A model generated the notes under the pieces. The model made no database searches. It saw nothing but the letters and a program-made list of their open reading frames with translations, and was not told the origin of the DNA. DNA of 64,000 nucleotides from Ianthella basta (Eukaryota; Porifera; Demospongiae; Verongiida; Ianthellidae). Location of the stretch: assembly GCA_964019415.1 (NCBI GenBank), contig OZ025879.1, positions 4,384,137 to 4,448,136 of the forward strand. Reading direction: 5' to 3'. The translations under genes were made by a program, and so were the position numbers. Below, piece by piece: positions 464-64,000 of the stretch. Within the stretch, counting starts at the first letter, position 1. Every line of letters starts with the position of its first letter.

Positions 464-731
464 CTTTCTTTGCAGTGTCAGTGGGGAAGTGGATTCTGCC
501 AGAGGATGCACCCAAGTCTCCATTAGTGTTGATGGCAGCCACTGACACACTGTACTCTGAATTTGGTAGTAAGTCTGCTAGAGTTACACTGGTGAGTGAA
601 GTGTTCACTGTAGTGTAGCCACATGTACAATGTATATTCCTCAGTTGGTACGTCACAATGTAGTTCTCTATCACAATGTCACCCATCCTGTACTGTTGCT
701 CATCCCACGACACCAAGGTAGTGTCCAGACA
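464..731 (-). pseudogene. Orphan FN3 exon relic (gene A)
   Basis: The minus strand encodes an FN3 domain very close to the last FN3 exon of receptors B, C and C2 ([10 protein letters not shown], then [20 protein letters not shown]). A good splice donor follows the exon at its low-coordinate end (AAAG then gtgaga). The first part of the domain, which in the paralogs begins near a CTCCT-Q/W-PP segment, is absent: similarity stops near 731. No transmembrane, tail or phosphatase exons are seen left of it before the window ends. It is either a decayed leftover of a receptor gene or an exon of a gene continuing to the left; the missing 5' part favours a relic. Confidence 0.6.
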
Positions 732-779
732 CAAAATCAGACACAAGTTGACATTCTGAGGTAGCATACACAGTGAGGG

Positions 780-2400
780 AGGCTTGGTGCAAAAGCGATC
801 AACTAAAGCGCTTGATTGACATTTTCGTTAAATGGAAGTATTTCGGCAAAGGGATGACTTTTAAGTCATTGCAATGTTCAAAACTGAGCATAGGAGATGG
901 AGTACAAGGGTCTGGAGGACAGAGATCTGCTGATTATGCTAGCTGAAAGATGTGTGACAAGCGCAACTCACAGCATTGCTAACATTTCCTTGCTCTGATC
1001 GAGGGAAATCCTCGGATTTGAAGGTGTGGCAGTATCCAGTGTTACTCCAATGTCTAGAAACAGCATGCATGCATCTTTGACTGCTATTTCAGTGCATTAC
1101 AGCGACTCAATTTTGCTTCAGCTGTCCCCAATACATGGCATTTCAAATTACCCATCGGCCATTTGCGCTAAAATGTCTAAAAACAGAACAGGTTGCCGTG
1201 CTCTCCCTGTCACAGCAGGTTTGAGATCGATGATTCATGTACTACATGAAAGAGCAATGTCTCCTCTGACCTCTTTGAGAAATTTGTCCTTGTACGCTTT
1301 GTAATTTTCGAAAAATGTAATAGCTTATTTGCCATGCTAAAATTATATCCCGAATCACCACTTTGCCCTATAAAAGAAGGGGTCCCCATACTCACAAGCT
1401 TAAGGGGGGCCCAAATCTCATGGAAGAATGAGGACCCGCGGGGTCCCAATACTTATATGAGATTGGGGACCGGTGTCCTGCATTCTTACATGACACTGTC
1501 ACACTTCCACAGTGATGTTTGCTTTTGTAGATTGTAGATGGGGAGTCGTTTGCCAATTTTCCTCAGCAAAACAGTGCAACCTGAAAGCATAGATTTGCCA
1601 TAATGTTGTGACTTCACAACTGCGCTATACTCATCAAACACTTCTAATGTGTGTTAGCATAGGAAGCATGTGCAGTGTGTCTTCAGAAAAATGCACCCTA
1701 AAATTCTGGCATTAAAGAATATAATGAGCTAGGAGGGATAGTGCATTGCTCAGCATTGCATGGAAATAAATATATGGGTACTTTTCAACATTGTTTGGGT
1801 AATACATTTATTGTATAACTCTCCATGCAGTAGTTCCTGGTGGGAAGGGGATAATATATATAAAAATAAAGGAATAGTAGGAAATTAAAAGGGTTGTAGT
1901 AGCGACACTGCCAGATGTAGGGATGGTGAAAACGGTGGCTGAACATTTCCATGAAGTGCTGAGTACTGCACTGTCTTTTCTTGTTCGAAATCTTCTTAAC
2001 CTGGTAACCCAGCAAATAGGGTATTCTTCTGGAGATGTAGTGTTATCTCTACATCTCCTCTTGTTATCTGAAAATCTTCATATACCTCAAGTTAGTGTAC
2101 TTTTTCTGGAGGGCAAGTTAAATAAGGCCCAACGTCCCAAATGCATAAAAGCATGTATACAGATTTAAAGATGGGCAATTTAAATTGTGCCCTAGCTAAA
2201 TTCAACCACAAGCAGTGATGCAAGCATGCACTGTTTCTGTTTCTAGCTAGTAGCTAAAATGGATTATGCATACTGGAGCATGCACTGATGTGTATAACTA
2301 ACACTTCTACTCCAGGCCTAGGAAGTTATGGGCAGTTGTATAGGGGAAGAGTGCTAGCTAGATAGATCACTTCCAATACATACAACACCCTCAACCGTTC
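780..2400. other. Intergenic region between gene A relic and receptor B
   Basis: I recognise no gene here. From about 1370 to 2400 the sequence is paralogous to the spacer upstream of receptor C (about 28607-29870) and more weakly to that upstream of C2 (35030-35410). This shows that the duplicated unit includes spacer as well as gene. The stretch 780-1340 has no visible match elsewhere in the window and sits where a promoter and signal-peptide exon would be expected for gene A. Confidence 0.5.
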
Positions 2401-2469
2401 ACATACATCCTCAACTGTTCTACTGATAATAAACTTCGTAAGGATCCTCCACTTGATCAGGAACTTTCT

Positions 2470-2840
2470 TCACAGATGGTGCACTGCTGAATATGCTGGG
2501 TTAGCTTCAAGCTGGGGGTCTTCATACACACTGCTATGCTTACTGCAGGTACAGATATTGGAAGAGAGTGCAAGATAGTACAGTTCACTAACATTCCCAC
2601 TTTGAAAGCAAAGTGAACTGCAATGACTAGAATCATGCACTCAGTGCTGAGTGAACAGTGGTGTAATGTACTACATACAATAGCATATATACCTGTCTTG
2701 CTTGGCAATGTTGAGCTCTTTCTTAACCTTCCAAAACACAGCCATACCCACACAGCCAGCAATGATTGCTGTCAGCAGGACACCTCCAAGGAAGCTGCCC
2801 ATGGCAACACCCACTGTATCACCCACAGCAAGGCATGCAT
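2470..2840 (-). CDS. Receptor B transmembrane exon and shortened tail
   Basis: The exon at 2693-2840 encodes a glycine-rich helix ([20 protein letters not shown], then CVGMAVFW) followed by basic [13 protein letters not shown], as expected for a membrane stop-transfer. The tail exon begins at 2542 and reads [19 protein letters not shown], then leaves the paralogous frame and stops at TGA 2470-2472. Compared with the orphan copy at 17049-17184 it has lost 13 bases in the middle, so the distal tyrosine block (DPYEAYYQ in the orphan) is out of frame here; its old stop would lie at 2420-2422. The proximal NPAY motif is kept. Confidence 0.65.
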
Positions 2841-62065: not shown

Positions 62066-62474
62066 TTTACTTTTACGTAAGATGAACGAGTCGGTTGTAA
62101 CCGTATTAAGTCTAGTGAAAGCATAGATATCTATGGTGAAAGTCACGACTCAGTAGAAATGTTGGAAAACAGGAAAATTTGGCACCAGCCGGCAGCCGAA
62201 ATCAGGACAACTTACGCCCTAACGCGGGGTTTCAGCAGCCCAAGCCAACCAACCAAGCCAGAACAATTCGCCCTTTCTATCCTTATAGGCTAGTTCCGAA
62301 CGACGGAATGGTTCAACTAACCTTTGCAGGTGTGCTGCTAACTGCTGCCACTGAACCTGCGTACAACAAGTCAGTACGGAGCGATGACAAGGTTCCACTA
62401 ACCTGAACGGCGGGCTGCAAACTGCTGCCACTTATCAACCCAGTACTGTGCTCCTATTTTACTTTTACGTAAGA
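62066..62474. mobile_element. Insertion flanked by a 17-base direct repeat
   Basis: TTTACTTTTACGTAAGA occurs at 62066-62082 and again at 62458-62474, a perfect target-duplication-like pair around 375 bases. Inside are two imperfect copies of a unit with GGTTC(A/C)ACTAACCT and AACTGCTGCCACT (near 62310 and 62390). The GGTTCAACT core recalls a polymerase III B box, so a SINE is possible, but the tail and A box are not clear. Confidence 0.45.
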
Positions 62475-62711
62475 ATAGCTATATAACATTGCAATCTACC
62501 TACCAATCTACCAGTCTGTAGAGCAGCCACCTATACCATTCCATCCCATCCCATTCAACACTATACCATGCAATTAATGAGCTGCATGAGGCATGGTCAC
62601 ATTGTAAAACTATACACACTGCATTTCAAAGTGTGAGCTTGATGCTGACATAGTGGTCATGAGAGCAATAAATGTGGATGAAGTGAGGGCTTCTCAGCTG
62701 GCTCAGGCATC

Positions 62712-62795
62712 AGAAAGGGTTGGTTCTCTAATACCAGCTTCATACCAGCTTTTCAACCCTGTTGTGAAGCTGGTATTAGAGAACCAACCCTTTCT
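62712..62795. repeat. Perfect hairpin, 31-base arms
   Basis: AGAAAGGGTTGGTTCTCTAA and the next 11 bases (62712-62742) are exactly complementary to 62765-62795 around a 22-base loop. The absence of any mismatch implies recent origin or selection. Confidence 0.85.
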
Positions 62796-63115
62796 AATAA
62801 ATGTGGATATTTATAAGGGAGTTGTTGGTCAAATACAGCTTAAATATTTGGCCACATTGAGTGAATGCATTCTCCATGGAAGCATGCATACATTAAGACA
62901 TTTGCTCAGTGGGTAAGTACTCACTGTAGAACTACAACATACTGCAAAGCAAACTATCCTCCCTGTCTATAAAGGAGGGAGATAGTGTGTCAACTACACT
63001 GCTTACAAAGGCCTATACTGCTCATCTATGTACTAACCTGTGCACCTGTTTGGTAGCACTTTAAAAGTGTAGTATTATTAGGACTATAGTTGGATTAGTA
63101 TTGCACTCTTCCACT

Positions 63116-64000
63116 TCAAATGTCAAAATTGGAATATCCTTCAAAAGCATTCAGGTATTCTTGAATGGCTTCATGGCAGAATCTAAACTGGTCCTACAAA
63201 TCAATGCAGAAAGTATACAGTGTAAACAGACAAGTGACAAGCAAACCATTACAGAAAGGTAGTATCACATGTGAGCCCAAGGAGGAGCAGAATGCGTGAA
63301 TGTATTAGGAACAATTGCTGGCATCAGTACAGCCAAGCATAAACAGCACTTTGTTGACTACTCACATACAGTATGTCACACATTACTAGCCACATAATGT
63401 ATTGCTAGCTATTGCTATTAGAGGTAGAGCTAGTGCTAATCTACATTGTACTGCTGATACCTAGGGTTGGTTACCAGTACTATATATAACTCGTGCAAGC
63501 TGACCAGACCTTTGTTCAGTGGGAGGTAGTGATATCAGAAATTAACTCAAAGTGGGAGCAAACAATGATCAAACGCAATCATTGCCCCTGCTGTCAATCA
63601 ATTGCAAGTGAGTGCTGTTTTAAACAATGAAACACACCACTCTGAGCACATATGTATAGGTATGAGCAGTAGTATGTGTAGCTGTGTGTGTGTGTGTGTG
63701 TGTGTGTGTGTGTGTGTGTGTGTGTGTGTGTGTGTGTGTGTGTGTGTGTGTGTGTGTGTGTGTGTGTGTGTGTGTGTGTGTGTGTGTGCGTGCGTGCGTG
63801 CGTGCGTGCGTGCGTGTGCGTGTTTGTTATATACAGTATAACAATCTCTGATGCACTAGGAGGGTCTTGCAAGCTACACTAGTCATGTACTTGCAGGCAA
63901 TTACTGGTTTACAGACATCACATGCATGTCACATGCCCTCACCAGACGAGGCACTGCTCCTGGTCTCTGTGTCCTGATGGACTTGATTGTGCCGACCACA
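63116..64000 (-). CDS. Receptor phosphatase E, last exons (partial)
   Basis: The last exon 63116-63193 encodes [17 protein letters not shown], then EGYSNFDI and TGA, differing from receptor D at few residues. The next exon starts at 63943 and is cut by the window end; it reads [19 protein letters not shown], the part of D2 just after its signature. Introns and the 3' flank from 62850 also match 38400-39473. A second receptor phosphatase therefore lies to the right in the same orientation, in tandem with receptor D. Confidence 0.8.
63683..63822. repeat. TG microsatellite in receptor E intron
   Basis: Pure TG for about 105 bases, then TGCG units. It is in the same intron as the shorter tract 39279-39357 in receptor D, so it is inherited from before the duplication and has expanded. 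Confidence 0.95.

Follow-up and report, generated by a model that had tools for sequence, protein, structure and literature searches.

We found that a 64,000-nucleotide stretch of the Ianthella basta genome (C12:4384137-4448136, where C12 is contig OZ025879.1; hereafter the window) forms the left end of an array of receptor genes in which one type of ectodomain, made of an immunoglobulin (Ig) domain, a variable Ig-like domain and fibronectin type III (FN3) repeats, is joined to two different signalling ends. Receptor D of the window continues into a pair of protein tyrosine phosphatase (PTP) domains, whereas receptors B, C and C2 have short tails with an NPxY motif, and these gene models bear out the claim, made in a preliminary description of the window, of one ectodomain type with two signalling ends. 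The array lies at C12:4.38-6.15 Mb, a span of ~27 window lengths. Judging from its sequence, the balance tips slightly towards a paired-receptor complex, in which a catalytic and a docking tail would be carried on one modular ectodomain. The analysis is based on one assembly (209 Mb in 96 contigs), and the receptor genes were rebuilt from splice sites and reading frames; beyond the 264 kb that were read (5.2 kb of these N), the array is known mostly from search matches.

Extent and signalling ends of the array

A search with the Ig exon of receptor D, in which 150 of 318 candidates were scored, gave at least 79 matches on C12, D's own included, between 4.399 and 6.115 Mb and with 72-100% identity. 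Four of the 79 cover less than 85 of the 98 residues, and 78 list no stop. Outside C12, three matches were found at C4:9.79-10.06 Mb, together with a group of more divergent matches, most of them on C8. The array consists of two arms separated by ~350 kb without matches: a left arm, on the minus strand, that extends as far as 4.77 Mb, and a right arm that starts at 5.13 Mb and is mostly on the plus strand. Matches of the variable exon come almost exclusively from this receptor family: 90 candidates yielded 87 matches, with 81 on C12, three on C4 and three elsewhere, and 72 of the 73 C12 copies that are near full length have no stop. Ig, variable and end exons were each found at dozens of positions along C12, and the linked copies described earlier were found again to the right, where ~9 more genes within 200 kb have the same modules in the same order; this recurrence exceeds what chance would give.

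When the end types were assigned from the order of exons along the strand up to the next end, rather than from transcripts, the 79 Ig exons were followed by PTP domains D1 and D2 in 20 cases, by a transmembrane (TM) exon of the short type in 46, by D2 only in two (one of them a probable assembly duplicate) and by no recognised end in 11. PTP and tail types interleave along the array. At 5.49-5.68 Mb, 12 genes in a row alternate strictly in type, and through most of this stretch the PTP genes are spaced ~27-31 kb apart; the shuffle p-value for the alternating run is 0.0018, within a block picked after inspection. The number of type changes was not unusual, either in this block (16 vs 12.4 expected, p 0.10) or in the whole array (20 vs 23.6, p 0.17 for as few).

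The two ends differ in their signalling motifs. The D1 signature is present in all 20 PTP genes of the array, and WPD together with VHC in 19 of them. In receptor D, the active-site motifs of D1 are intact (WPD loop and HCX5R) and D2 is without an active site; the best matches of its PTP pair, among PDB sequences only, were PTPRS, LAR and PTPRF. The short tails contain NPxY, found in 10/10 tails of the C12 type that were read, and as many as two additional tyrosine motifs. The pattern of the immunoreceptor tyrosine-based inhibitory motif (ITIM) was found in none of these ten tails, nor was a pair forming the corresponding activation motif (ITAM); a single YxxL/I (YSVI) occurs in one. Receptors of the short type use a TM exon and a tail exon of their own; two queries matched this tail exon at 42 places, and a tail match lies within 3 kb downstream of 35 of the 54 short-type TM exons on C12. 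Inspection by eye of the window's four short-type copies revealed no charged TM residue. Ectodomain exons have phases 1-1 and the TM exon runs from phase 1 to phase 2 in both tail types, so that both kinds of end fit onto the ectodomain in frame.

The right edge of the window lies within a repeat. Positions 60928-65500 (4.58 kb) recur 29.8 kb to the right, at C12:4474868-4479446, with 99.87% identity. A run of 5000 N, possibly a gap or withheld sequence, follows the first copy, and a run of 200 N precedes the second. The repeat is probably an unmerged contig overlap, in which case the first exons of receptor D are seen twice and one Ig exon of the census is a duplicate.

Ectodomain exons, tail types and selection

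Of the 78 non-duplicate Ig exons, 72 were extracted (four partial and two unfetched exons were left out), and one with a disturbed start was excluded before tree building and the dN/dS analysis. On the tree of the remaining 71 (19 PTP, 43 tail and 9 unresolved), the PTP label requires 15 changes, compared with a mean of 16.6 after shuffling, and 113 of 500 shuffles were as low as 15. Well supported branches force at least six label changes, and a single Ig clade of PTP genes was rejected on this tree. For 40 of 63 Ig exons, the nearest neighbour belongs to the same tail type, where shuffling expects 36.1 (p 0.24). Ig sequences do not group according to tail. Comparison of receptor D with 11 to 13 other genes, exon by exon, showed that its Ig is closest to a tail gene (93.2%), its variable exon to another tail gene (82.2%), its first FN3 (FN3-1) to receptor B (94.4%) and its FN3-2 to a PTP gene (94.9%). 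Gene D is a mosaic, with its nearest relatives shifting from exon to exon.

The dN/dS ratios were calculated with the NG86 method across paralogues, among which gene conversion is likely. The ratio was 0.55 for the Ig exon (71 exons), 0.52 for the variable exon (11 exons, after three of 14 readings were dropped for stops or a frameshift), 0.69 for FN3-1 and 0.64 for FN3-2 (13/14 exons each), and 0.29 and 0.20 for two PTP D1 exons (19 and 20 exons, respectively). The variable exon is hypervariable at columns 76-90, where the proportions of nonsynonymous (pN) and synonymous (pS) differences are 0.52 and 0.58. A single 15-column stretch of this exon reached a dN/dS of 1.22, a value that comes from 11 paralogues under the same method and the same likely conversion. 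Synonymous divergence is very low in the exon cores, with a pS of 0.000 at columns 46-60 of FN3-2 and 0.066 at columns 46-60 of Ig. Constraint on the amino acids alone is insufficient to account for such values, which segmental homogenisation would explain. A permutation test for shared tracts was positive, but it was made without control for rate differences.

Gene models of the window and related loci

The modelled receptor exons are all on the minus strand, with AG acceptors and GT donors except for one GC donor in receptor C. The splice-site model of receptor D (61761-39157) has 25 exons and is open over 1265 amino acids. It starts with the signal peptide (61701-61761), linker (61473-61511), Ig (61040-61333) and variable Ig-like (49795-50238) exons, followed by FN3-1 (47551-47853), FN3-2 (47152-47445) and FN3-4 (45706-46011); a dead FN3-3 exon with an internal stop, which resembles the third FN3 of receptor B, is located at 46480-46780. 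The TM exon (45453-45594) and juxtamembrane exons (45190-45362, 44997-45106 and 44789-44870) lead to D1 (44570-41428), with the active-site exons, including the WPD loop, at 41924-42324, and to D2 (40787-39157). The Pfam matches of this model are Ig_3, three fn3 and two Y_phosphatase (E 2.3e-129).

Receptor C (29908-34728) is composed of a signal peptide, a linker, Ig (33864-34175), a variable Ig-like exon with a one-base frameshift (32268-32677), three FN3, TM (30221-30350) and a tail (29908-30040). Receptor C2 (24248-28304) is open throughout (667 amino acids) and contains signal peptide (28241-28304), linker (27780-27833), Ig (27383-27682), variable Ig-like (26672-27070), FN3 (26140-26442, 25353-25646 and 24972-25277; Pfam fn3 in all three), TM (24561-24705) and tail (24248-24386) exons; its Ig scored 29.9 bits with Pfam Ig_3, just below the cut-off of 30. 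Receptor B (2470-15998), open over 748 amino acids, has a signal peptide (15938-15998), a linker (15685-15723), Ig (15246-15545, also found as Pfam Ig_3), a variable Ig-like exon (11639-12046), four FN3 exons (5264-5566, 4859-5158, 4266-4574 and 3667-3972; Pfam fn3 in all four), TM (2693-2840) and a tail that is truncated just after NPAY (2470-2542). On the same strand are an orphan TM exon with a full short tail containing VYEDP, NPAY and PYEAYY (17049-17481), an orphan FN3 exon at 465-756, the rest of whose gene lies beyond the window, and, at the right edge (63943-64000), part of the last D2 exon of the adjoining phosphatase receptor. The window thus shows exon loss, a frameshifted copy and orphan exons, as the preliminary description had reported. 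That description had also stated that B, C, C2 and D share signal peptide and linker as well as Ig, variable Ig-like and FN3 exons; this holds for Ig, variable and FN3 exons, whereas the signal peptide and linker are common to all four in position but not in sequence, and form two sequence types, B/D and C/C2.

Several other features lie between or within these genes. A kinesin gene (Pfam Kinesin and Kinesin_assoc, in three reading frames) is located at ~17.5-22.7 kb on the minus strand, between C2 and the orphan TM and tail exons. Overlapping frames on the plus strand at 36833-38121, between C and D, look like a multi-pass membrane protein, without a significant Pfam match. Reverse-transcriptase fragments (RVT_1) at 6274-7584, 8613-9104 (just below its Pfam cut-off) and 10171-10986 occupy the intron of receptor B that separates the variable exon from the first FN3.

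Elsewhere in the assembly, the three outlying copies of the C12-type ectodomain at C4:9.79-10.06 Mb include two with identical match scores for both the Ig and the variable exon, possibly a recent or artefactual duplicate. Related arrays, for which 150 of 407 candidates were scored, were observed at C8:6.26-7.65, C16:5.0-5.73, C3:2.95-3.12 and C4:2.90-2.92 Mb. Three stretches from them (two from C8, one from C4) were read and contain FN3, a related Ig exon and a second Ig-like exon of a different kind; long tyrosine-rich tails are present in two of the three, with one ITIM-pattern match in the stretch L111 and one ITAM-like pair in L113. Further large arrays of PTP-domain exons are found at C6:4.2-4.7 and 5.95-7.1 Mb. 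Clustered kinase domains (PF07714) are numerous on C3, C11, C16 and C8 (about 1.5 Mb), with 130 scored of 2397 candidates at first look, and none of the matches listed falls within C12:4.38-6.15 Mb. COX1 has a single match in the assembly, on a 21.2-kb contig, with nine in-frame TGA codons. Over 266 codons compared with the best PDB relative, TGA stands at tryptophan in 5/5 cases and AGA at arginine in 4/4, which fits mitochondrial translation table 4 and not tables 2, 5 or 13. Table 4 is used in the mitochondria of sponges, cnidarians, placozoans and ctenophores, and the COX1 sequence is presumably demosponge-like.

Known receptor systems and alternative explanations

Receptor D resembles the R2A receptor-type PTPs (LAR, PTPRS, PTPRF and PTPRD), in which Ig domains precede FN3 repeats, one TM and tandem PTP domains with intact D1 motifs; D likewise has two tandem PTP domains after one TM, the first with a WPD loop and HCX5R. 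However, R2A receptors have three N-terminal Ig domains, which were not found in the receptors of the window: the array has one recognised Ig and one unclassified Ig-like domain. Also unlike R2A receptors, it is multicopy, and the same ectodomain type occurs on non-catalytic tails. The vertebrate paired receptors KIR and LILR are clustered and combine one ectodomain family with differing signalling ends, and in the array, too, homologous ectodomains are found on different ends within one cluster. Its tails lack the ITIM pattern, however, and one end is the phosphatase itself, so the likeness to ITIM/ITAM paired receptors is one of layout, not of motif.

Among invertebrates, the Alr (allorecognition) complex of Hydractinia is likewise a cluster of transmembrane Ig-superfamily genes, but FN3 repeats and PTP ends are features of the array. 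PMC12065747 describes a balance between ITAM and ITIM tails in mammalian natural killer cells, gives the same as a proposal for Botryllus and Hydractinia, and reports ITAM/ITIM in Hydractinia candidates. The same paper describes Botryllus fester and fester co-receptor genes as neighbouring pairs in multigene haplotypes, with Ig/sushi ectodomains and ITIM, hemITAM or Y-x-x-I/L/V tails (PMC12065747), whereas the array has FN3 and a phosphatase end. In their paired arrangement, the fester genes resemble the alternating stretch of the array.

The receptor tyrosine kinase of Geodia cydonium has a kinase end, in contrast to the phosphatase or short tail found here. It is reportedly polymorphic and is said to have been proposed for a recognition role. 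It is described as a sponge receptor with an Ig-like ectodomain (PMC12018476).

In a paired-receptor complex of this kind, ectodomain exons would be exchanged between PTP and tail types through unequal crossing-over and gene conversion, and the exchange would leave catalytic- and docking-tail receptors able to read the same class of ligand. Engagement of a tail receptor would be followed by phosphorylation of its tyrosines through a cytoplasmic tyrosine kinase, and PTB/SH2 adaptors would dock on the modified sites. The phosphatase receptor, engaged alongside or kept out of the contact, would set the threshold by stripping phosphates from the tail, and the inhibitory enzyme would be part of the receptor itself instead of being recruited via an ITIM.

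A number of results weigh against this reading. Distances between Ig exons correlate with those between D1 domains over the 18 PTP genes tested (Mantel r 0.37, p 0.011), although the correlation was absent within the 14 right-arm PTP genes (r 0.10, p 0.26). Among 14 genes, FN3-2 mostly follows the type of the end, and the FN3 nearest to the TM is type-specific; therefore, exon exchange seems strongest in the outer exons and less in the inner ones. For 19 of the 54 short-type TM exons on C12 there is no recognised tail within 3 kb, and the 11 Ig exons without a recognised end have to be added. None of the six exon types has a dN/dS above 1 as a whole (NG86 on paralogues). The preliminary description had suggested that the enzyme and its possible substrates may see the same ligand; the common exons, on which this rests, make it possible, but the most variable exon differs between adjacent genes. 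Finally, a D2 exon lies 2.0-3.7 kb downstream of the TM exon in three tail receptors (Ig at 5677858, 5691164 and 5826433), a hint that some tail genes are remnants of PTP genes.

If that held for the short type in general, its members would be phosphatase genes in decay, deprived of their PTP exons and persisting as decoys or pseudogenes, and the truncated tail of B and the frameshifted variable exon of C would fit as well. We regard this as improbable, since the short type has TM and tail exons of its own, the latter matched at many places, NPxY is kept in every tail read, and tail genes exceed PTP genes 46 to 20. Less remote, yet still unlikely, is that the array consists of tandemly duplicated ordinary adhesion receptors of the LAR type, with relaxed constraint, homogenised cores and no recognition role. 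The ectodomain dN/dS of 0.5-0.7 agrees with relaxed purifying selection, the exon cores show very low synonymous divergence (FN3-2, Ig), and the PTP part is nearest to PTPRS/LAR in PDB. However, almost all the C12 Ig matches and near-full-length variable exons are free of listed stops, the variation is gathered in segments, and a swap of signalling ends is unexpected for plain adhesion genes.

Innate recognition of microbes or symbionts, a tentative reading and short of probable, competes with a self/non-self use and not with the paired mechanism. The variable exon would then bind foreign surfaces, with no self ligand, and the array would be large because ligands change. Other invertebrates use large families of variable Ig proteins in immunity, and the size of the array, the hypervariable segments of the variable exon and the related arrays elsewhere are all in line with such a role. 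No sequence feature points specifically to microbes, though, and activating/inhibitory pairs are reported for cnidarian and ascidian allorecognition candidates (PMC12065747).

Returning to the paired-receptor reading, its most likely uses are recognition of self/non-self tissue or of microbes, in about equal measure, with the first somewhat favoured by the paired layout; the remaining weight goes to plain adhesion, drift or decay. The self/non-self role that had been suggested for the cluster in the window is plausible, but taken by itself as the function it is a tentative assignment, short of probable. Equally tentative is the fuller picture of a sponge recognition complex of ~78 ectodomains, in which exon exchange would keep the same variable domains on an active phosphatase and on an NPxY tail, and fusion or rejection would be decided by the balance of two receptors reading the same self marker.

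To our knowledge, there is no agreement on which receptors sponges use for self/non-self recognition, and aggregation-factor genes are the candidates most often named. In an Amphimedon graft study, as far as its available part states, these genes were not significantly enriched (PMC5450542). The array offers a defined target of ~1.75 Mb for this question. It also suggests a route by which opposite signalling may arise without ITIM/ITAM, with the phosphatase inside one member of the pair and phase-matched exons at the joint.

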